Below, in pieces: positions 2,846-48,622 of a stretch of 48,837 bases of DNA (within the stretch, counting starts at the first letter, position 1; each line of letters opens with the position of its first letter). The translations under genes were made by a program, and so were the position numbers. The stretch comes from Nanobdellota archaeon (lineage in GTDB: Archaea; Nanobdellota; Nanobdellia; Parvarchaeales; Parvarchaeaceae). The stretch is taken from the NCBI GenBank assembly GCA_021818905.1, contig JAKASS010000008.1:1-48837 (forward strand). The letters are read 5' to 3'. The notes beneath the pieces were generated by a model. It was not told the DNA's origin. It did not search any database and saw nothing but the letters and a program-made list of their open reading frames with translations.

Positions 2846-4084
2846 ATGATAAGATACAATTCACCGTTCCATCTTTGCAGCGGTCTAGAAGTCATAATAA
2901 AATCAGCCCCTAAGCTCCACTCAATCGGCATAGCTCTCGGCGTGCAATACGGTGCGATGGACGACCCAATCGCGAAGAGCGGCATGGCAAACCTCCTACA
3001 GAGAACCGTATACAGGGCGGATAAAGATCTAGAAGATGCAATAGCAGAAAACGGGATAGAGCACAGACCGTTCACCGATTACAATGCTACTGTACATGCG
3101 TTTAAAGTGCCAAAAAGAAAAGTACGCGAAGGTTGTGATCTCATGGCAGCCGTAGCGTCAAGTTACATGATAACGAATCGGGCTATGGAACCGGAGAAAA
3201 TGAGAATGATAGAAGAGAATGCGCAGATGGAAGACGATGCAGGCCACTTTGGATTTAATACTCTTCAAAAAATTATGTTCGGCGATAGCCGCCCTAGCAT
3301 ATCAACTGGGGGGACAAACGACACTTTGGAGAGGATATCAGTCGACGATCTGAAAAAATCGCTTTTAGCGAATTACACCGGCGATAAGATGGTGCTTTCG
3401 ATATACGGAGCTACAGGCTTTGAACCAGCGCTTAATGCTGCGGCAGAAGCGTTCGGAGACGTCAACTCGACTTATTCTCCAAGAAAAGTAGCAAAGGCGA
3501 TACCCGTACTGCCAGTAAAATCTCTATCCTTGGGTAGAGATGGCATTACCCAGACTAAATTCTCTTTAGGTATTAGGACAAGAGGTTTCTTTGATGACAA
3601 TAGGGTATACGAATTGCCAGCACTGGATTGTGCCGTCAGGATACTTAACGAAAGGATATACGATGAAGTAAGGGAGAAAAGGGGACTTGTATATGGGGCT
3701 TGGGCCGGGAACGTAGAAAATAACGGTTTCGGTTTTATTACTATAAGTGGCGGGGCAAGACAGGAAAAGATGGAAGAAGCCCACAAAGTTATACTAGAAG
3801 AACTACAAAAAATGAGAGACGGTGAGATAAGCCAGGCGGACCTAACCAGAGCAAAGAGAAACGGCAGGATAGAGGAGGAAGGTTATCTTGACGATACTGG
3901 GGTAACGGCTTCCAAAATAGCTTACGAAAGATCAGTGATAGGAGACGGCGCGTATATGCTTAGCGATGCGGCTAGGAAATTAAATCTCACTCAGCTAAGA
4001 AAAACCACTGCAAGATACTTCAATCCAGATAAAGTCTACTCGGTTTTTGTAGAGCCAAAACAAATCAATTTACCGATCTTATGA
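2846..4084 (+). CDS. M16-family peptidase-like, non-catalytic partner subunit
   Basis: 412 residues of M16 fold, starting one base after the catalytic subunit gene stops. At the zinc-site position it reads GMANLLQRTVY, so both His ligands and the catalytic Glu are replaced (N49, Q52, R53). Around residues 270-290 it keeps RIYDEVREKRGLVYGAW, the R/Y substrate-anchoring motif lost from its partner. It should therefore complete a heterodimeric active chamber, as alpha subunits do in mitochondrial processing peptidase and bacterial M16B pairs. Its stop overlaps the next start (ATGA, 4081-4084). The heterodimer is inferred from sequence only. Confidence 0.85.
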   Translation: MIRYNSPFHLCSGLEVIIKSAPKLHSIGIALGVQYGAMDDPIAKSGMANLLQRTVYRADKDLEDAIAENGIEHRPFTDYNATVHAFKVPKRKVREGCDLMAAVASSYMITNRAMEPEKMRMIEENAQMEDDAGHFGFNTLQKIMFGDSRPSISTGGTNDTLERISVDDLKKSLLANYTGDKMVLSIYGATGFEPALNAAAEAFGDVNSTYSPRKVAKAIPVLPVKSLSLGRDGITQTKFSLGIRTRGFFDDNRVYELPALDCAVRILNERIYDEVREKRGLVYGAWAGNVENNGFGFITISGGARQEKMEEAHKVILEELQKMRDGEISQADLTRAKRNGRIEEEGYLDDTGVTASKIAYERSVIGDGAYMLSDAARKLNLTQLRKTTARYFNPDKVYSVFVEPKQINLPIL

Positions 4085-16054: not shown

Positions 16055-16819
16055 TTGTCCCCCAAAAAGCACGGCTACGATGTCACGATGCGGGACACGA
16101 AAAGCCTGCAGCTTTACTTCGAGAGGAAGAGAGTAAAGGCCTCAAGGGAGACCATACGCAGGACGTTATTTGGTATGGGCGGACACTACGTCAAAGCCGT
16201 CCACGAGTACGCCGAAGCCGATCTTAAGAAACAGCTCGCATTCGCCAAAAGGACGCTTAAAACGCTAAGATCGATGGACAAGGATACGATTGCGCTTTTC
16301 GAGGACGAGATGTCCGCGGGCGGATCATTAAGGAAAGGATACGGATGGACTTTCGACGATAGGCTTGTGATCAAGGCTCCAGCTTACCACATGAAGAGGA
16401 CTAACGTCTTCGGGACCGTCTCCCCTCTCACTGGAGAGATCGTACAGTCCTCCTTCGCAAGCGCCAAGACTCCAGCTTTCATGGAGTTCCTCAGGAGGAT
16501 AGCAGATGCGTTTTCAGGAAAGAAGATAGTGCTGTACATGGACAACTTCCGCGTGCATAGTCCGGAGAAGACAAGGCGCTTCCTAAAGCTGCATCCCGAC
16601 CTCAAAGTAAGGTTCTTTCCCCCTTATTCTCCCCGGCTCAATCCCCAGGAATATTGGTGGAACTATCTCCGCAGGAAGCTGCTTAACAACCGCTTTTTCA
16701 GATCCGCAAGGCAAATGGCTTTTGTGATGGGGCGGTTTGTCAAGTCCGTATATTCGGAAGAAGTGATGGGCGTGTGCTCTTTGAATCCCCTCAGAAAGAT
16801 ATTAAAGGACGGAGTGTAG
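16055..16819 (+). pseudogene. IS630-family transposase, N-terminally truncated
   Basis: 254 codons, opening at a TTG, of DDE transposase. Catalytic acids appear in ALFEDEMSAGG, VLYMDNFRVHS and YSPRLNPQEYWWNYLRR. The first residues SPKKHGYDVTMRDTKSLQLY correspond to the end of the IS630 winged-helix region, so roughly 80 N-terminal HTH residues are absent. The Nudix gene stops only 33 bases upstream. I see no convincing terminal inverted repeats. It is richer in GC than its neighbours. It is not closely related to the IS630 element at 37722-38812. Confidence 0.75.
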
Positions 16820-30977: not shown

Positions 30978-31832
30978 ATGGCCGAAAGCCCGGAAAAACA
31001 GATAAGCGGGGGATACAAGCTCAAGCTGATGCACCTCATATACGCCGTAGTAGCGATGGTCGCAGTAATAGCCATCACGGTCCTGATAGCGGCATTTTCT
31101 GCTAGTCCGGTCCAGAACACTTCGGTCGGGAATGGATGGCATCAGGTCGTAGGACTTCAACCATTTACGGTCGGTAATCAATTATACGTAACTTTTATAG
31201 GAATAGAATCTTGCCAGTTCTGCGCTGCAGAAAGATACGCGATTTTTGATGCGCTAAGCAATTTCGGCAATTGGACATATTACGGCAAAATGGTTTCGCT
31301 AAACACCCTGCCCGTGGAAAATTTGACTACGGGCGCTGAATCAGCATCAGACGCAATTTTTTACAAAGCTGGCGAAGGAGACTGGACATTGAATTTCTTG
31401 GCGACGCACCTTAGTTACACTTCAGATTATATAGATTTTTCAAGCGCAGAAACCTTGAACAATGGGGGTTCAGCACTCCAAAGTCCAAGCGCGATACAAA
31501 GTAGTTATCTGAACAAGTATGATCCGGCGGGAAGCGTCCCATTTACGATCATAGGGGGGAACTTTTATGAAGTCGGCGCCGCGGATAGCCTAGTATCAAC
31601 CGGGACTCCAATAATCTGTTTTCAGAACGTCACCAAGTGTACTCCGTCTACTGGTTATATGCCAGACTACATAATCTCACAGTTTAATCTTACCGGTTCG
31701 GCTATAAATTTAGGCATGACCGAAGAAGCAGATTATATTTCAGCCTTGATATGTTTTGACATAAACAATGCAGCGCCGGTATGCAGTTCTTCGGCGGTTT
31801 CTTCTTTAGAAAGCAACATAGTTAAAAGTTAA
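30978..31832 (+). CDS. DUF929-family membrane-anchored thioredoxin-like protein
   Basis: 284 residues. One N-terminal transmembrane helix (about 18-42) places the rest outside the cell. VTFIGIESCQFCAAERYAIF carries the C79-x-x-C82 motif and matches the DUF929 signature; VPFTIIGGNFYEVGA is the cis-Pro region of a thioredoxin fold. Two further cysteines are near the end. Probably a secreted thiol oxidoreductase. TATA GATATTTATAGG lies about 28 nt upstream. Confidence 0.85.
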   Translation: MAESPEKQISGGYKLKLMHLIYAVVAMVAVIAITVLIAAFSASPVQNTSVGNGWHQVVGLQPFTVGNQLYVTFIGIESCQFCAAERYAIFDALSNFGNWTYYGKMVSLNTLPVENLTTGAESASDAIFYKAGEGDWTLNFLATHLSYTSDYIDFSSAETLNNGGSALQSPSAIQSSYLNKYDPAGSVPFTIIGGNFYEVGAADSLVSTGTPIICFQNVTKCTPSTGYMPDYIISQFNLTGSAINLGMTEEADYISALICFDINNAAPVCSSSAVSSLESNIVKS

Positions 31833-39223: not shown

Positions 39224-40492
39224 ATGGAAATAAAGAACTATCTCGTGGATAAAAAACTGGACATAGATTCGTTGTACGTAAAGGCCCGCGGACTAAAATT
39301 AGAGCCGACCATAAATTTTATCACCTCTATCATAGGGCCGAGGCGGGCAGGGAAGACTTACCTTATATATGAATTTATAAAAGAAAAACGGCTTAAACCG
39401 GAAGATTATCTGTTCATCGACTTTGAAGACGAAGACACCATAAGTTTTAGACGAGAAGACCTGCTAAGATCGCCATACTTATCCAAAGAGACCTACGGCA
39501 AAGAACCAGATTACTTATTTTTCGACGAGATCCAGAACTTGAAAGAATGGGAACGTTTGGTCTATACACTGTATGAGAAAAAAAGATACAAGATAGTGAT
39601 CACGGGCTCATCATCTAAATTGCTGAGCAAGGAAATAGCGACTTCATTGCGCGGTCGGGCTTTACCATTGACAGTCTTGCCGCTTTCTTTTGTGGAGGTC
39701 CTAAAGGCGAAGAACGTGACCCTATCACCGCCACTATCAAGCGAAAAGACCAGTAGTATAAAATATGAGCTGTCAAACTATCTAGTCAATGGCGGGTTTC
39801 CTGACATAGTGTTTGACAACGCAAAAGCCACCCAGTTCTTCAGGCAATATCTAGATCTAGTGATCTTTAAGGACTTGACGGAACGGTTCGGCATAAGAAA
39901 TATCTCCGTCGTAAAGTTGCTCATGAATTCTATATTATCCGCGTCCGGGAAAGAATTCTCGATAAGCAAACAATACAAGACACTAAGAAGCATGGGAATG
40001 AACGTCAGCCAGAAGACCGTATATTCATATGCGCAATTATTCGAAGATTCGTTTTTCTGTTTTTTCATCCCAAGGTTTTCGACCTCATTGAGAAAATCGT
40101 CTTTATCCGTCAAAAAAGTATATCTGAACGACAATGGCTTCGCAAACATTTCGGGCGACAAAGAACGTGGAAGGCAGATGGAAAATGCGGTTTTTCTGGA
40201 ATTGCTAAGAAGAAAAGACAATTACGATATTTTTTACTGGAAAGACTATCAGCAGAGAGAAGTAGATTTCGTAATGAGCACAAACGGCAAATCCCTCGGC
40301 CTTATACAGGTGACTTACGCCAGCCATAAGGAAGAATTGGGACAGAGGGAGCGCTCTTCGCTGCTTGTCGCATCAGAAGAACTGCATTGCAATAATCTTC
40401 TGATTATAACCTGGGACTACGAAGCGGAGGAGAAGATCAAAGGCAAGAAGATAAGGTTCGTTCCCTTGTGGAAGTGGCTCCTTGACGTTTGA
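39224..40492 (+). CDS. AAA_14/DUF4143-type ATPase, copy 1
   Basis: 422 residues. Walker A GPRRAGKTYL (about 38-47), Walker B YLFFDEIQNL (about 100-109), sensor-like VITGSSSKLLSKEIATSLRG, then a DUF4143 region with DFVMSTNGKSLGLIQVTYA (nuclease-like core). The C-terminus from ITWDYEAEEK to WKWLLDV is identical in copies 2 and 3. Such ATPases occur in many copies in archaea; their job is not established. Leaderless promoter with a flanking inverted repeat. Confidence 0.85.
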   Translation: MEIKNYLVDKKLDIDSLYVKARGLKLEPTINFITSIIGPRRAGKTYLIYEFIKEKRLKPEDYLFIDFEDEDTISFRREDLLRSPYLSKETYGKEPDYLFFDEIQNLKEWERLVYTLYEKKRYKIVITGSSSKLLSKEIATSLRGRALPLTVLPLSFVEVLKAKNVTLSPPLSSEKTSSIKYELSNYLVNGGFPDIVFDNAKATQFFRQYLDLVIFKDLTERFGIRNISVVKLLMNSILSASGKEFSISKQYKTLRSMGMNVSQKTVYSYAQLFEDSFFCFFIPRFSTSLRKSSLSVKKVYLNDNGFANISGDKERGRQMENAVFLELLRRKDNYDIFYWKDYQQREVDFVMSTNGKSLGLIQVTYASHKEELGQRERSSLLVASEELHCNNLLIITWDYEAEEKIKGKKIRFVPLWKWLLDV

Positions 40493-40541
40493 ACGCCGGG
40501 ATAAAGACGGCCGCACGGTCTAGCAGTCCTCGGCTTCAAAC
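40399..40541 (+). repeat. Conserved 3' cassette, copy 1
   Basis: The last 31 codons and about 50 bases after the stop closely match the ends of ATPase copies 2 and 3 (ACCTGGGACTACGAAGC; AAGATAAGGTTCGT; GACGTTTGAACG; GCACGGTCTAGC). This copy is the most diverged, with about 15 percent differences. The cassette is richer in GC- and C-ending codons than the gene body. Confidence 0.75.
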
Positions 40542-40630
40542 GCCCGATCATTCACGTTTCCTACAAGAAACATTAAAAAAGAGATTTTCAAGAAGAAGGC
40601 GTGTTAAATCCGTAGGGGTACATAAAATAT

Positions 40631-40659
40631 AAATAGTTTCCCCCTTTAAGAAACTATTT
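40631..40659 (+). promoter_or_regulatory. Perfect 10-bp inverted repeat at the ATPase 2 promoter
   Basis: AAATAGTTTC (40631-40640) and GAAACTATTT (40650-40659) are exact reverse complements with a 9-bp spacer. The right arm overlaps the TATA box ACTATTTAAAAG, about 27 nt before ATG 40684. A repressor site is the simplest reading. 40542-40630 is otherwise without features. Confidence 0.55.
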
Positions 40660-40683
40660 AAAAGAATCGGCCCTTTGTATATT

Positions 40684-41973
40684 ATGGAACGTAAGGCAAT
40701 CGAACGGTATCTTATAAATAAGAAAGAGGAGATAAGGTCGCTTACGGTGAAAGAGAGACTGACATCTTTTGAAGTTTCGAAGCAATTTGTAACCGTCATA
40801 GTCGGCGCTAGAAGAACTGGCAAGACGTATGGGGTGCTAGACTTTTTGTTAAATAAATTAAGATTAAAGGATCCCGATTTTTTGTACTTGAACTTGGAAG
40901 ACGTAGATCTCGATGGAATTACGAATAAAGACATATCTGATACCGTAAATGTACACCAGCAGATATACGGGGTGCCGCCTTCGATCATATACGTGGACGA
41001 GCCACAAGTAGTACAAGATTGGGAAAAGGCGATTTATTCTCTTCACGAAAAGAAGTCCTTTAAGATAATAATAACTGGCTCTTCGTCAAAGCTTTTAAGC
41101 AAGGAAATCGCCTCGGCTTTAAGAGGTAGAACATTGACTTATTCTGTCTATCCACTATCATTTAAAGAATACTTATCCTTTAAAGGAGTTACTCCTAAAG
41201 AAGGGGGGCCGTTGCCTAGTTCTATAAAAAATAAGATAATGTATGAGTTATCAGCGTATCTTGCCACCGGGAGTCTCCCAGACATCGTCATAAACCCATC
41301 GATTTCGTCCAAATTCTATAATGATTATATCGATTTGATAATCTTTAGGGATATAGTCGAAAGATTTGGAATAAAAAACATAGGTATAATACGGTTTGTA
41401 ATAAAATCGCTGATAACTTCCTTTTCGAAGCAAGCGTCGATACATAGTATGTATAAAGCTTTGAAAGGCAATGGACAGAAAATAAGCAAAAAAACATTGT
41501 ATTCTTACGTTTTCTTATTAGAAGATGCATACTTTTCTTTTCAGTTAAAGAAATTCAACTTTTCAAATAAGAAATCCGAACTGAGCATATCGAAGACTTA
41601 CTTGAATGATTGGGGAGTCGCGTCTATGATGTTAGATCTTAAAACGGAAATCGGAAGGACGATGGAAAATGCAGTCTTTATAGAATTAAAACGTAGACAA
41701 ACGCAGAATGATAAACTTTATTATAGTGATATTGGTGACGAGATAGATTTCGTTAAAGTAGAAAAAAATAAAGTTTCAGATCTTATACAAGTCACTTACG
41801 CGTCGAATAAGAACGAAATAAAAGAGAGGGAGATAGAAAATTTATTAAGCGGGTCCATAAAACTTAACTGCAACGATCTCCTCGTGATAACCTGGGACTA
41901 CGAAGCCGAGGAAAAAGTAAAAGGCAAGAAGATAAGGTTCGTCCCCTTGTGGAAATGGCTCCTCGACGTTTGA
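40684..41973 (+). CDS. AAA_14/DUF4143-type ATPase, copy 2
   Basis: 429 residues from ATG 40684 (a TTG at 40675 is in frame but upstream of the expected transcription start). Walker A GARRTGKTYG, Walker B SIIYVDEPQVV, TGSSSKLLSKEIASALRG, then DEIDFVKVEKNKVSDLIQVT. The body is AT-rich and only moderately similar to copy 1, but the last 31 residues differ at one position (Val for Ile). Own promoter with an inverted repeat. Confidence 0.85.
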   Translation: MERKAIERYLINKKEEIRSLTVKERLTSFEVSKQFVTVIVGARRTGKTYGVLDFLLNKLRLKDPDFLYLNLEDVDLDGITNKDISDTVNVHQQIYGVPPSIIYVDEPQVVQDWEKAIYSLHEKKSFKIIITGSSSKLLSKEIASALRGRTLTYSVYPLSFKEYLSFKGVTPKEGGPLPSSIKNKIMYELSAYLATGSLPDIVINPSISSKFYNDYIDLIIFRDIVERFGIKNIGIIRFVIKSLITSFSKQASIHSMYKALKGNGQKISKKTLYSYVFLLEDAYFSFQLKKFNFSNKKSELSISKTYLNDWGVASMMLDLKTEIGRTMENAVFIELKRRQTQNDKLYYSDIGDEIDFVKVEKNKVSDLIQVTYASNKNEIKEREIENLLSGSIKLNCNDLLVITWDYEAEEKVKGKKIRFVPLWKWLLDV

Positions 41974-42044
41974 ACGTCGGGATAAGGACGGACGCGCGAT
42001 CTAGCGGTCCCCGGCTTCTCGGCATCCTCTTCATAAGGCATCTG
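41870..42044 (+). repeat. Conserved 3' cassette, copy 2
   Basis: About 175 bases are nearly identical to 43474-43648. Identity starts abruptly at CTGCAACGATCTCCTCGT inside the gene and continues 70 bases past the stop to CCTCTTCATAA. CGACGTT-TG-AACGTCG forms a 7-bp hairpin that includes the TGA stop. The base composition changes at the start of the cassette. Confidence 0.8.
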
Positions 42045-42234
42045 TACTTCCCTCCGCCAGTCGACTATCGTCTTTCTCATGGATATCAGGTCCTTGAATA
42101 AGACTGCGTCCAGGCAGCTGCCTTCTAGCTTCGTTTATTATTGCCTTGTCCATTTCTCGTATATTCTGAAATCCTTTAAGTTCTACACGGCTTCCGCCTT
42201 CTATTGAAAGGTTTACGTCCTGCCGCCCATGCAT
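42031..42234 (-). pseudogene. Fragment of a GatE/GatB amidotransferase subunit
   Basis: About 40 codons (42112-42234) read GRQDVNLSIEGGSRVELKGF then QNIREMDKAIINEARRQ. This matches the RQDxNVSIxGGxRVEIKGVQ block of GatE/GatB, the tRNA-dependent amidotransferase subunit. No other part of that gene is visible; the frame then runs into unrelated sequence. It is a displaced fragment lying between ATPase copies 2 and 3. Confidence 0.6.
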
Positions 42235-42308
42235 TGTGGAGGTCTAGATTTTGTTAATCTCTACCTTATAAAGGAAGCTTTTTATATAAAGACGATCATA
42301 ACGTTTCT

Positions 42309-43577
42309 ATGGTCTCGATCTTCGATTTAAAGTCCGCCATCGCCGAAAAAGAAGCGGAACTTAGATTAAAATTTAAGAGTGAGAATATAATCGGACGGGA
42401 ATTGATCTCGAGGGTCAAAAATCCGAGACGGGATTTCGCTACGATAATAACCGGTCCGAGGCGAAGCGGCAAATCCATATTCGCGTTTCAATTGGCAAAA
42501 AACGAGAATTTTGGTTACGTTAACTTCGATGACGAAAGACTGAGAATCCCAGCAAAAGACTTAAATAGAGTTTTGGAAGCGCTATATGTCCTAAAGGGCG
42601 ATATAAATTTATTCATATTCGATGAGATACAGAACATAGACGGCTGGGAACCATTCGTTTCCAGACTTTTGGGCTCAAAGAGAATAATCCTAACGGGCAG
42701 CAATGCAAAGATCATGAGTAAAGAACTGGCTACACGACTTACCGGCAGACATTTAGATTATGAATTATTCCCTTTTAGTTTTAGAGAATTTCTTAGATTC
42801 AAATCACATAAAACGGACGAACCTAGCATTTATTTAACGCAAGAAAGGGCGAATTTAGTGGAATTAACAGAAAAATATATAATAAACGGCGGGTTTCCTC
42901 TTGCCGTAAGAGAAGGGAAAATCGTATTGGTAGAGCTGTACAAGGACATAATAGAAAAGGACGTTGTACAGCGATACAAAATAAACATGAGGACAAAATT
43001 GGCAGAGGTTTCGAGATATCTTATATCAAACGCTTCTTCAGAGATAACATACGCTAAACTAAAAAATATATTTGAGATAAGAGGACAGCACACGATCCAA
43101 GACTGGATAACTTATCTCGAAAAGGCATACCTGCTGTTTAAAGTAGAACGGTTCTCCTTTAAATTGAAAGAAGCAATAATAGCCCCCAAAAAGATCTATT
43201 GCATAGATACGGGCATCATAGGTATGATCTCCCCTCGGCATAGCATGAGTAGACTGATGGAAAATGTCGTCGCCATAGATTTAATAAGGAAAAAAGCTTA
43301 TTCGGGCGTCGAAATAAATTATTGGAAAAATCATACGCAGAAAGAAGTCGATTTTGTTTTGAGAAACGGCAATAAAGTGCTTTCGTTGATACAAGTTACT
43401 TACGCCTCTAGCAAAATAGACGTTAAAGACAGAGAAATAAACAATCTTCTTGCTGCTTCAAAAGAGCTCCACTGCAACGATCTCCTCGTCATAACGTGGG
43501 ACTACGAAGCCGAGGAGAAGATCAAAGGCAAGAAGATAAGGTTCGTCCCTTTGTGGAAATGGCTCCTCGACGTTTGA
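42309..43577 (+). CDS. AAA_14/DUF4143-type ATPase, copy 3
   Basis: 422 residues. Walker A TGPRRSGKSIFAF (about 50-62), Walker B LFIFDEIQNIDGW, ILTGSNAKIMSKELATRLTG, then KEVDFVLRNGNKVLSLIQVT. Body sequence differs strongly from copies 1 and 2, but the end from ITWDYEAEEK to WKWLLDV is identical. TATA TTTTTATATAAAG is about 25 nt upstream (leaderless). Function unknown; possibly a stress or defence STAND-like ATPase. Confidence 0.85.
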   Translation: MVSIFDLKSAIAEKEAELRLKFKSENIIGRELISRVKNPRRDFATIITGPRRSGKSIFAFQLAKNENFGYVNFDDERLRIPAKDLNRVLEALYVLKGDINLFIFDEIQNIDGWEPFVSRLLGSKRIILTGSNAKIMSKELATRLTGRHLDYELFPFSFREFLRFKSHKTDEPSIYLTQERANLVELTEKYIINGGFPLAVREGKIVLVELYKDIIEKDVVQRYKINMRTKLAEVSRYLISNASSEITYAKLKNIFEIRGQHTIQDWITYLEKAYLLFKVERFSFKLKEAIIAPKKIYCIDTGIIGMISPRHSMSRLMENVVAIDLIRKKAYSGVEINYWKNHTQKEVDFVLRNGNKVLSLIQVTYASSKIDVKDREINNLLAASKELHCNDLLVITWDYEAEEKIKGKKIRFVPLWKWLLDV

Positions 43578-43748: not shown

Positions 43749-45182
43749 TCATATACAGCAACTTGTGTCTTTGACATTTCTAAAGAAGGATTGAGCGACT
43801 ATTTTTAGAGCCTCTGACATCGTTGGAAAAACATGTATCGTATCTATCACATCTTCGACTTTATAATCATTTTTCACTATCATGGTCGCTCCATGTATAA
43901 GCTCCGCCGCTAAAGGCGAGAGTATTTGCACACCCAAAACTACATGCGTCTTTGGGTGTACGACCATTTTTATCATGCCACTTGTGTTGCCCATTATCAC
44001 GGCTTTTGGCACGTCACTAAATCTGACTAGCCTACATGCGCATGCTTTGAACTTTTCAATCGCTTCTTTTTCTGTGATACCGACGCTCGCGAATTGAGGT
44101 TCCGTGAATACGGCCCTTGGTACGATATTTTTATTTATTTTTTTATGAGCGCCCAATAAGGCGTTTTCAGCGGCATGTGTGCCTTCTCTAGCGGCCAGCG
44201 CTTCTAACATTGGCTCTCCTGTCACGTCGCCGGCAGCAAATATATTTGGGTTGCTTGTCCTCATTTCCTGGTCTATCGTTATTTCGCCTTTGGCGCCGAC
44301 TGTGATATTGGCTTTTTCAGTATTCAGTGCCTTTATATTTGGCGTCCTACCAGTGGCAAAAAGGATCGAAGACGCTTCAAACACGGCCGTTTCTCCATTG
44401 ACCACCGCGTTTACAATGATTTTATTGTTTGCGGCGCCCTTCTCAAAGCTTTTGAGGTCGACATTTGTGCGTATTTCTATCCCATCTTCTCTTAAGTATG
44501 ACTCTAATGCTCTAGACAGCTCTGGCTCTTCCTCCGGAATGAGCAACTGGCTTCTTTGGAGAAGTGTCACTTTTGTCCCAAACCTATTGTACATTTGTGC
44601 GAATTCTAGGCCAAGAGCACGCCCACCGATCACAATGAGTGATTCTGGGATCCTTTCCTGTTCAAGACCTTCTATATTTGTCCAATAATTTATACTGTCT
44701 ATTCCTTTTAGTTTTGGTATTGAGGGACTAGCGCCAGTTGCAATAATAAATTTTTTCCCCCAAATGACCGTGCTTGCGCTATTTTGCCTGATTTCTACCT
44801 CGTTTTCAGAAATGAAGCCCGCAATGCCTTCATAGAGCTCTACGTTTTTGAGCTTGCTTAGTACCTTTTCGTATTTTTCATGTCTCAAATTCTCTACAAG
44901 GGTTTTTTTAAACTCCATTATTTTGGCAAAATCAAACTCTTCGTCATGTTGCACGATCGTATTTTTCCCCAAATCGTGATTTCTTGTATTTCTTATGACC
45001 TCTCCGCTGACAAGAAGCCTTTTGCTTGGGACACAGCCGACATTGACACAGGTCCCGCCGATCATGCCGCCTTTTATCATAGCGGCCTTACTGCCAAGCT
45101 CGTCTGCCTTTATTGCAGCGGCAAAGGCTGCTGCACCATTGCCTAATATGACTAATTCATATTCTTTGCTCGTCATCATCAC
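43749..45182 (-). CDS. merA: Mercuric reductase
   Basis: 477 residues of the pyridine nucleotide-disulfide oxidoreductase family, reducing Hg(II) to Hg(0) with NADPH. FAD-binding ILGNGAAAFAAAIKA, redox pair C45/C50 in GGTCVNVGCVPSKRLL, NAD-binding VIGGRALGLEFAQ, and the C-terminal vicinal pair C475-C476 in KDTSCCI that is diagnostic for MerA. No N-terminal HMA domain, as in other archaeal MerA. The regulator lies four bases upstream. Confidence 0.93.
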   Translation of the reverse strand: MMMTSKEYELVILGNGAAAFAAAIKADELGSKAAMIKGGMIGGTCVNVGCVPSKRLLVSGEVIRNTRNHDLGKNTIVQHDEEFDFAKIMEFKKTLVENLRHEKYEKVLSKLKNVELYEGIAGFISENEVEIRQNSASTVIWGKKFIIATGASPSIPKLKGIDSINYWTNIEGLEQERIPESLIVIGGRALGLEFAQMYNRFGTKVTLLQRSQLLIPEEEPELSRALESYLREDGIEIRTNVDLKSFEKGAANNKIIVNAVVNGETAVFEASSILFATGRTPNIKALNTEKANITVGAKGEITIDQEMRTSNPNIFAAGDVTGEPMLEALAAREGTHAAENALLGAHKKINKNIVPRAVFTEPQFASVGITEKEAIEKFKACACRLVRFSDVPKAVIMGNTSGMIKMVVHPKTHVVLGVQILSPLAAELIHGATMIVKNDYKVEDVIDTIHVFPTMSEALKIVAQSFFRNVKDTSCCI

Positions 45183-45186
45183 CGCC

Positions 45187-45525
45187 TCATTTGATAGTCA
45201 TCTTTCTAACATCAGAAAGCATTTCGCAATCTCTTATTTTGTCACCAAAAATCTTTGCATGCTTATTTGCAGCGTCTATGATCGGCGTTATCGTGTCTTT
45301 GTTTAGCCCATATATCATTTTTTTACCTTTCCTCTCTGAGTGAACAAAACCGCACACCGCTAGGCAGCGTAGTTCATGGGACACCCTGGGCTGCTCTTCG
45401 TGTATCTCTCCACAAATTTCATTTACATCCATGGGCGCTTTCAAGAGGGCTTCTATTATGGCTAATCTAACCTCGTTTGAAAGTACCTTGAAGATCAATA
45501 CATTGACGCCATTCTCGCTTTTCAT
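45187..45525 (-). CDS. ArsR-family metal-responsive repressor (archaeal MerR type)
   Basis: 112-residue winged-helix protein: LSNEVRLAIIEALLKAPMDV, NEICGEIHEEQPRVSHELRCL, then HSERKGKKMIYGLNKD (wing). Cysteines in NEIC, ELRC and AVCGF and a later DCE could sense metal. In Sulfolobales, mer operons are controlled by an ArsR-fold protein named MerR; position next to merA supports that role here. Confidence 0.9.
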   Translation of the reverse strand: MKSENGVNVLIFKVLSNEVRLAIIEALLKAPMDVNEICGEIHEEQPRVSHELRCLAVCGFVHSERKGKKMIYGLNKDTITPIIDAANKHAKIFGDKIRDCEMLSDVRKMTIK

Positions 45526-45568
45526 ACAAAATCAATATTTAATGATCAACGCCGATCACGACCGTACT

Positions 45569-45667
45569 TTATTTTCCCGCCGCTGAGATCACCACATCGC
45601 AACAAGAGCAAGAGTCCATACAACGTCCCTTTTGCTTAGGTTCACTTTGTTTAGCCATTTTTGCCAT
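45569..45667 (-). CDS. Cys-rich 32-aa peptide at the head of the mer operon
   Basis: ATG 45665-45667 to TAA 45569-45571. The sequence starts MAKMAKQSEPKQKGRC and continues MDSCSCCDVVISAAGK, giving C-x(3)-C-x-C-C, a compact soft-metal site. A TATA-like GATATAAATAC lies about 32 nt upstream on the minus strand and is the only clear promoter for the arsR and merA genes. It may buffer or deliver Hg(II). A second ATG (codon 4) is possible. Confidence 0.6.
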   Translation of the reverse strand: MAKMAKQSEPKQKGRCMDSCSCCDVVISAAGK

Positions 45668-45731
45668 AAAACCACAATATAAACATAGTAAGAGTAAGTA
45701 TTTATATCTTAACATATGATAAAATAACGAT

Positions 45732-45809
45732 ATGATATGCCTGCTTGAGTATGAACGTAATGCAATTAGGATAATACTTGCGGATAGGCCCTACAGTTTG
45801 TTATTATAG
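45732..45809 (+). pseudogene. 25-codon ORF cut off at a dispersed repeat
   Basis: ATG 45732 to TAG 45807 encodes MICLLEYERNAIRIILADRP and YSLLL. It has a TATA-like ATTTATATC upstream and helical look, like the beginning of a regulator. It ends exactly where TATAGCTCTCCAC begins, so the gene was probably truncated by that element. Weak evidence. Confidence 0.3.
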
Positions 45810-45863
45810 CTCTCCACTATTATAGCTCTCCACATAAGTAAACCGACACCAAAATAGGGAACC
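45805..45863. repeat. Dispersed repeat, copy 2 with a partial duplication
   Basis: TATAGCTCTCCAC occurs at 45805-45817 and starts again at 45821, where a 43-bp match to 18865-18907 follows (CCGACACCAAAATAGG at 45843-45858). The doubling suggests nested or repeated insertion of the same end. Confidence 0.55.
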
Positions 45864-46213: not shown

Positions 46214-48622
46214 ATGAACAAAAAAAAGGCCGCTGTAGAAGACATAAATGAAAGGATGAAGGGTCTTTCGACATCGTTCGAGGGCATATCGGAAAAGGAG
46301 GCTGAAAAAAGACTCCTTTATTACGGCGCCAATACTATAGCGGAGAACCCGCAGAATTACCCCCTTAAGTTCTTAGGAGAATTCATCGGCCCCATACCAT
46401 TCATGCTTTTTGCGTTGATCGGCCTCTCGATTTTTCTTAAAGATTATACCGAAGCCTTCATAGTCATAGGGCTGCTTATATTTAACGCCGTAGCGACCTT
46501 TTTTGAGGAGTTCAAAGCCGATAACACACTTGAACTTTTGAAGAAAAAATTAGCTGCATATGTCAACGTCAAAAGGGGCGGCACATGGAAACGGGTCGCT
46601 TCACAAAGCCTTGTGCCCGGAGACATAATCCGGATAAGACTGGGGGACATATGCCAAGCGGACGGCTTGATAACAGAAAGTGATTATCTGTCAGTAGACC
46701 AATCGATGCTGACTGGAGAATCTTTACCCGTCGAAAAACGGCGGGGGGAAGACATATTCTCTTCCTCATTGGTGAAAGCCGGCGAGGCGACCGTGCTTGT
46801 GACGGCGACGGGTAAAAAAACCTCGTTTGGTAAGACCGCGGAACTAGTCAAAATGGCGAAAAGCCGGACTCACTTAGAAGCAGACATAATAAACCTTATA
46901 AAATATCTTGTAGTGGCGGATATCGGTCTTATCGCGGTAGTGCTTATTTTCTCTTTCATATCGGGGATAAACCTGATAGACACGGTGTCTTTCTCGTTGC
47001 TTATATTACTGGCGTCCGTCCCGGTGGCGATCTCTGCGGCGTTCACGATAGCGATGGCATACGGCGCCAAGAGGCTTTCTTCCAGGGACATATTGGTCAC
47101 TAAATTAGGAGCGATAGAAGAAGCAGCCACTATGGACCTAGTCTGCCTTGACAAGACCGGCACGATGACCATGAACAAGCTCGCAGTCTTAGACCCGTGG
47201 CCATACTTAAGAAATACGAAAGAAGAGGTCTTATTGTACGGCTCTCTCGCTTCAAGGGCGGAGGACAACGACGAGATAGACACGGCTATAATAAGGGAGT
47301 GCCTCGATCACAAAATAAAAACGCCGGTTTTCAAAGTAAAAAGATTCTTTCCGTTCGACCCGGCGACAAAGATCTCGAGATCGGAAGTCGAAATAAACAA
47401 CAAGCTGATCAAGGCGGCGAAGGGCTTTCCTTCTGAGATAATCAGACTGTGCAATATAAAAAACGAGGAGTCACGTGAGATTGAAGAAAAAATAAGGTCA
47501 TCATCTTCAAATGGCGAACGGGTGATAGCCGTAGCTGCAAATAAAAATGGCGTATGGGATCTTATTGGATTATTGCCATTAGCTGATAGACTACGACCCG
47601 ATACTAGAAAATTGATATCCGAACTAAACAGACTCGGTCTGACTACAAAAATGCTTACAGGAGACAATATAGACACGGCGAGAGCGGTGGCAAAAGAAGC
47701 GAAGATCGGGGATAAGATGATAAGCGCCGATAGTCTCGCTGGAAAAAGTGAAAAGGAAATAGCCGGACTGGTCGCTGAAAACGACGGCTTTGCAGGGGTA
47801 TTTCCAAAGGATAAATACACCATAGTGAAAGCGCTGCAAGATTCTGGTTTTCATGTGGGCATGACGGGGGACGGAGTAAATGATGCCCCCGCCCTTAAGC
47901 AGGCGGAGGTCGGCATCGCGGTCTCTAATGCGACTGACGTGGCTAAGAGCGCCGCAGCCATAGTGCTTACTGCCGGCGGGATAGAACCGATAGTGAACGC
48001 CATAAAAGAGAGCCGAGCCATATTCGAGAGGATGATGACTTACACATTGAACAAAGTAACAAGGATATTCCAAATCGCCTTTTTCTTGTCGGTAGCATTC
48101 ATAGTGCTAAAATTCCTGCCGCTCCTGCCGATACAGCTTATACTCATGATATTCATAAATGACATAGGCAGCATCTCACTTTCTACCGACGAAGAAAGCT
48201 ATTCCAAAGGACCGGACAACTGGGATACCAAAACGATACTGCATGCCTCATTGATCTTTGCTGTCATGGCGACTATAGAGATAGCTTTGCTTTCTATCAT
48301 CGGTTTATCCTACCTTCATTTGGGCGAGAGCGCGTTCCAGACCTTTCTATTCGTTTCATTCATATTTTCAATAGAAATGATGCTCCTCTCGATCAGATCA
48401 AGACACGGATTCCTTTCCTCCATGCCAAGCGCGCCCGTCTTGCTCCAGATCATATCGGCGGTCTTGATAACTGCGTTTATAGCGTATTTCGGCATATTAA
48501 TGACCTCGCTAAGGGCAGAATACCTGATATTGCCCGCCATATTCGCGGTGATATTTTTAGTCTTGACCGACGCGATCAAGGTTTTTATATACGGAAGATA
48601 CCACGAGTTCGCAAAGCTTTAG
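46214..48622 (+). CDS. Plasma-membrane-type (P3A) H+-transporting P-type ATPase
   Basis: 802 residues. A-domain TGES (167-170), PVAIS in M4, phosphorylated D313 in CLDKTGTMT, MLTGDNIDTA and GMTGDGVNDAPALKQAEVG in the P-domain. In M5 TLNKVTRIFQIAFF keeps an Arg like R655 of plant H+-ATPase, and in M6 MIFINDIGSISLS contains the key N-D pair. There is no C-terminal regulatory domain. It would pump protons out to keep cytoplasmic pH near neutral, as in acidophilic archaea. Proton specificity is inferred from motifs. Confidence 0.9.
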   Translation: MNKKKAAVEDINERMKGLSTSFEGISEKEAEKRLLYYGANTIAENPQNYPLKFLGEFIGPIPFMLFALIGLSIFLKDYTEAFIVIGLLIFNAVATFFEEFKADNTLELLKKKLAAYVNVKRGGTWKRVASQSLVPGDIIRIRLGDICQADGLITESDYLSVDQSMLTGESLPVEKRRGEDIFSSSLVKAGEATVLVTATGKKTSFGKTAELVKMAKSRTHLEADIINLIKYLVVADIGLIAVVLIFSFISGINLIDTVSFSLLILLASVPVAISAAFTIAMAYGAKRLSSRDILVTKLGAIEEAATMDLVCLDKTGTMTMNKLAVLDPWPYLRNTKEEVLLYGSLASRAEDNDEIDTAIIRECLDHKIKTPVFKVKRFFPFDPATKISRSEVEINNKLIKAAKGFPSEIIRLCNIKNEESREIEEKIRSSSSNGERVIAVAANKNGVWDLIGLLPLADRLRPDTRKLISELNRLGLTTKMLTGDNIDTARAVAKEAKIGDKMISADSLAGKSEKEIAGLVAENDGFAGVFPKDKYTIVKALQDSGFHVGMTGDGVNDAPALKQAEVGIAVSNATDVAKSAAAIVLTAGGIEPIVNAIKESRAIFERMMTYTLNKVTRIFQIAFFLSVAFIVLKFLPLLPIQLILMIFINDIGSISLSTDEESYSKGPDNWDTKTILHASLIFAVMATIEIALLSIIGLSYLHLGESAFQTFLFVSFIFSIEMMLLSIRSRHGFLSSMPSAPVLLQIISAVLITAFIAYFGILMTSLRAEYLILPAIFAVIFLVLTDAIKVFIYGRYHEFAKL

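Follow-up and report, generated by a model that had tools for sequence, protein, structure and literature searches.

Metallothioneins are known from eukaryotes and from some bacteria. In the literature searched, we found neither a description of an archaeal or Micrarchaeota metallothionein nor the phrase 'archaeal metallothionein'; most subscription journals lie outside this scope, and an earlier description is possible. A survey of Haloferax mediterranei found no metallothionein (PMC9240420). Archaeal mer operons often consist of merA only, and in Sulfolobus they include arsR and TRASH proteins, with ArsR repressing until Hg(II) arrives (PMC3466566). The merA genes of Micrarchaeota and Parvarchaeota have been counted previously (PMC8261052). 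The locus described here has an ArsR-type regulator and a MerA core in common with the archaeal arsR-merA operons (PMC3466566, PMC8261052). It differs from them by a Cys-rich head peptide and, in the cassettes of donor type, by divergent membrane-protein and TlpA-like genes.

The locus was analyzed within a window of 48,837 nucleotides, the whole stretch of DNA under study. The order of elements is a conserved promoter, an ORF of 32 codons (45569-45667, minus strand), arsR and merA. The sequence-only reading had placed a C-x3-C-x-C-C ORF between promoter and arsR, with merA behind, and this arrangement was found exactly as described. Translated in all six frames, the 48.8 kb window contains this motif a single time. 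The product of the ORF is MAKMAKQSEPKQKGRCMDSCSCCDVVISAAGK, and its stop codon lies 43 nt before the arsR start. It begins with MAK and a basic tail, MAKMAKQSEPKQKG, as do the members of the peptide family aligned below (alignment A2, basic tail of ~12-18 residues). An alternative in-frame ATG at 45715 would extend the ORF to 48 codons. Since this ATG sits 5' of a TATA-like box, 45667 is the likelier start. The box, TATAAATA at 45699-45706, is located ~36 nt before the ORF ATG within a block conserved in both sister operons. This promoter block (45699-45722, minus strand) is a candidate operator, reads TATCATATGT.AAG followed by TATAAATA and is near identical in the window, L037 and L083. When 141 related genomes were searched, the conserved promoter/start pattern was found in the window only. 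A sigma-70 promoter scan was set aside as not applicable to archaea.

The arsR gene (45187-45525, minus strand) encodes an ArsR/SmtB-family regulator, likely the repressor of the operon, which matched PF01022 (E 4e-9, 36.7 bits, cut-off 22) and NF033788 (E 2.4e-19, 68.9 bits, cut-off 55). The merA gene (43749-45182, minus strand) encodes a mercuric reductase core without N-terminal metal-binding domain. It matched TIGR02053 with 558.8 bits (cut-off 454.45) and has the vicinal C-terminal Cys pair (DTSCCI). Comparison with the sister copies gave a dN/dS of 0.07-0.08 for arsR and 0.06-0.08 for merA, and all pairs fell within 0.06-0.10. Both genes are under strong purifying selection.

The window merA shares 75-82% identity with five merA loci spread over four Micrarchaeota MAGs (L036-L040), compared with 46-50% identity to merA of its own genus and family. 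The gene order of the window, and also its start-site sequence, recur in two Micrarchaeota operons, L037 (genome G295) and an operon of genome G394, and these two also have the arsR closest to that of the window (76-81% identity). The G394 operon, the third one, was found by a search with the window ArsR (81% identical). In L037 the corresponding position carries a small ORF, preceded by the identical sequence TTTATATTGTGGTTTTATGGCAAAA; the peptide is MAKQKRKAKKDMAHAQEISQEEQPYKGGEMKCNCDC. The G394 ORF is intact. Its product, MAKRTGKGQLKKEECCTSCCACCDCGECKGGKRKCGCSCC, has 40 residues: first a basic tail, then 12 cysteines arranged as CC and CxC clusters. In both genomes a membrane-protein gene and a TlpA-like thioredoxin gene are divergent from the shared promoter region. 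The next closest arsR (G449, 64%) has no Cys-rich peptide before it. In the remaining Micrarchaeota merA relatives arsR is oriented differently and the Cys-rich peptide is absent, and among 301 genomes of G394's phylum no further operon of the same arsR type with a Cys-rich peptide was found. Looking for similar ORFs in other mer operons, as proposed earlier, showed a Cys-rich ORF in two Micrarchaeota operons and in none of the others that were examined.

Further Cys-containing genes were observed at Micrarchaeota mer loci. A protein of ~91 residues with the Cys-rich tail CGGGCGCGNGMNSSCGCGSENCKGKECNCGNE is encoded near a mer locus (L038:2224-2571, minus strand); it has no Pfam match and is possibly another metal-binding protein. 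Some of the loci carry a CVFCGENRW-motif protein between arsR and merA (L088:9895-10962, L085:4643-5719), which resembles the DUF929 protein at 30978-31829 of the window (CQFC). A mini-ORF in L040 (MADVYIAALCK) was rejected as a second small peptide: near 3850-3950 this locus retains, after an ATG, just the final ~33 codons of such a DUF929-type protein.

The relation of the window ORF to the intact gene was analyzed base by base. Window and G394 can be aligned all the way from the ORF start codon to arsR with a single interruption, one base that follows the CSCCD codons. Up to this difference 45 of 71 bases are identical (maximum of 34 in 20,000 shuffles); past it 28 of 51 agree, more than in any of the 20,000 shuffles. 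Because the alignment with an intact gene at the same place is gapless from the start codon, the resemblance goes beyond chance. The first cluster reads RCMDSCSCCD in the window and CCTSCCACCD in G394, with four of the six cysteines kept at positions that are homologous by the base alignment. The frame of G394 continues in the window as CGDLSGGKIKYGRDRR up to a stop codon. This stretch (45546-45596, minus strand) is the remnant of the 3' half of the gene in the other frame, as seen in the alignment and with a frame-tolerant profile, and five of the six second-half cysteines are now L, Y, R, R and R. The CxCxCC cluster expected at the stop codon lies out of frame in the window, with KYGRDRR in its place before the stop. 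Thus, the window ORF is a derived remnant and not a full family member. An assembly error may lie behind the one-base difference, but the cysteines lost further on would not be affected.

The frame-tolerant profile was built from stand-alone family members only, with the mer-linked copies excluded. It ranked the ORF site first in the window (33.3 versus 18.8 for the second-ranked site), whereas 200 dinucleotide shuffles reached at most 19.1. The same profile scored an unrelated antisense stretch elsewhere, in L087, higher (37.0). The profile alone is therefore not decisive, and it supports rather than replaces the alignment and the conserved position. The L037 copy of G295 has kept the second cluster and lost the first, and the profile sees its second half only (27.7, next background score 27.3). 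Two of the three mer-linked copies have therefore decayed, in different ways.

Relatives of the intact peptide were collected with the G394 peptide as query and then with alignment A2 of twelve members. Of 301 Micrarchaeota genomes, 13 contain members. Most of these are stand-alone genes, and each encodes 11-13 cysteines. After Met and a basic tail comes a CCxxCCxCC-type cluster, and in nearly all of them CxCxCC immediately precedes the stop codon. Core codons of the stand-alone copies gave a mean pS of 0.83 versus a pN of 0.20, which identifies these copies as maintained genes. Their neighbours vary between lineages, and mer genes are absent among them. Stand-alone intact members are located on L090-L100, L103-L113 and L125 (genomes G295, G298, G305, G314, G322, G344, G381, G393, G408, G410, G453 and G456), with a position conserved between close pairs only and no fixed neighbour gene. 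In G295 an intact stand-alone copy coexists with the mer-linked one. Applied to 371 genomes from the phylum of the window, the A2 profile detected no intact copy, and it also missed the degraded copy of the window. Searches of plasmids, phages and viral contigs yielded no family member.

The family looks metallothionein-like, and its sequence suggests metal binding. As in bacterial and eukaryotic metallothioneins (SmtA, MymT), members are small, with ~30% Cys, CxC and CC clusters and few aromatic residues. Like these, the Micrarchaeota peptides probably act as cytoplasmic thiolate buffers. In contrast to metallothioneins, the family is archaeal, has a basic N-terminal tail and gives no sequence match: searches of Pfam, NCBIfam, PHROGs and PDB sequences returned zero hits, and the 12 intact members had no Pfam or NCBIfam match up to E 1, so that no curated metallothionein family was matched. 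The window peptide likewise has no Pfam or NCBIfam match. The earlier suggestion of a new Hg(II) peptide may be partly right for the family, but not for the window ORF, which is the 5' part of a 12-Cys gene, altered in frame and ending early behind CSCCD. The predicted unlikeness to MerH was borne out, as neither the window peptide nor the intact family matches the TRASH domain in Pfam. Sulfolobus MerH likewise comes from a small Cys-containing archaeal gene, adjacent to those for an ArsR-type regulator and MerA (PMC3466566), whereas the intact family has many more cysteines in another spacing and heads the operon. With MerP and NmerA there may be a functional analogy in handing over Hg(II) to MerA; the intact family is without the heavy-metal-associated fold and the GMTCxxC motif, and holds 11-13 cysteines in ~25 residues.

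Several explanations of the window ORF were weighed. A chance ORF in an untranslated leader between promoter and arsR, unrelated to any protein, would agree with the unremarkable length of 32 codons and with the low conservation of the ORF, the lowest in the region when window and L037 are compared. It is already contradicted by the codon-level alignment with the intact 12-Cys gene of G394 at the same site and by the conserved family elsewhere. Dinucleotide shuffles never attained the profile score either, and we regard a chance ORF as very improbable. The position directly between promoter and arsR, together with a spacer before arsR that is conserved between window and L037, might instead point to a leader peptide that is translated to regulate arsR-merA, the signal being cysteine or metal content. 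However, with 43 nt separating the stop codon from the arsR start there is no translational overlap, and the family also occurs as stand-alone genes in unrelated contexts. Leader-peptide control is not known from archaeal mer operons, and we give this explanation hardly any credence.

More weight belongs to readings in which the peptide still acts. The ORF could encode a shortened yet working peptide, its CxxxCxCC half sufficing to bind one Hg(II) or Cu(I) and surviving the loss of the remainder. The reading frame is open and stands behind a conserved promoter, and cysteines are kept at four of six positions before the frame difference compared with one of six after it. Across the 9 codons of the first cluster, silent changes are near saturation and amino-acid changes are few (pS 0.96, pN 0.22), which leaves room for remaining function. 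Yet these counts are tiny, and neither half is consistently preserved, since in the G295 copy it is the second cluster that remains and the first that is gone. A direct search of 141 related genomes with the 32-residue peptide gave weak, unlinked matches only and no convincing relative, and no other peptide of the short form was found. We consider a working short form unlikely. It is doubtful, too, that a new Micrarchaeota metallothionein family supplied one copy to the mer operon to buffer Hg(II) or deliver it to a MerA that lacks NmerA, with the window form still partly working. We favour with some confidence that the window ORF is a shortened, decaying metallothionein-like copy heading a horizontally acquired mer cassette of Micrarchaeota type. 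What the data show directly is the homology, the gene order, the frame difference, the gene losses and the purifying selection on arsR and merA. The form with four cysteines is probably vestigial and contributes little, and a role of the window copy in mercury buffering or delivery is unlikely.

A remnant of the divergent membrane-protein gene, 25 codons followed by a stop, is present at 45732-45809 on the plus strand (tblastn 53% identity, E 2.4e-4 to the L084 protein). In the window this gene is truncated and the thioredoxin gene is gone, and the sister cassettes cease to be homologous at the DNA level at 45786/45793. Exactly at this border, at 45804-45840, the short sequence ttatagctctccac is present twice as a direct repeat, possibly the trace of a deletion. 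For RadA, encoded on the same contig, identity is 78-87% within the genus and family of the window and 51-53% with Micrarchaeota. On this ground a misplaced Micrarchaeota contig was rejected; the contig belongs where it is assigned, and a transfer of the cassette is therefore probable. Genome grouping and RadA suggest a host phylum other than that of the Micrarchaeota. The mer cassette was probably acquired from Micrarchaeota and then pared down to arsR-merA.

Other features around the mer loci were recorded as well. Tyrosine-recombinase-like or integrase-like ORFs were recognised by eye near mer (L083:3674-4519, L085:2661-3101, L088:7591-8397), which suggests a mobile element as vehicle of the cassette. 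The window contains transposase ORFs (DDE_Tnp_1, DDE_3) and three successive AAA_14/DUF4143-like ATPase ORFs, one of them confirmed, within 179-1096, 16055-16816 and 39224-43577. A P-type ATPase of the plasma-membrane H+-ATPase type (46214-48622, plus strand; TIGR01647, 694.7 bits) is an unusual mer neighbour and is absent from the sister cassettes examined.

We propose the following course of events for such a cassette. The donor form would comprise the peptide gene, arsR and merA, plus the membrane-protein and TlpA-like thioredoxin genes on the opposite strand. Transcription directed by the TATA-like box would start ~10 nt before the ORF, and the ORF would be co-transcribed with arsR and merA. 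ArsR would repress the operon until Hg(II) arrives; upon such induction the intact peptide would be produced together with ArsR and MerA. MerA would reduce Hg(II) to Hg(0), and the intact peptide is predicted to bind soft metal ions as a cytoplasmic thiolate buffer. In the window, the one-base frame difference after the first cysteine cluster takes away the second one, and the divergent genes have been lost, so that a minimal arsR-merA unit is left. In summary, the conserved Micrarchaeota family with 11-13 cysteines is a concrete candidate for an archaeal metallothionein. The mer-linked copies tie this Cys-rich family to mercury, and would show a resistance cassette pared to its core after a move between distantly related small archaea.
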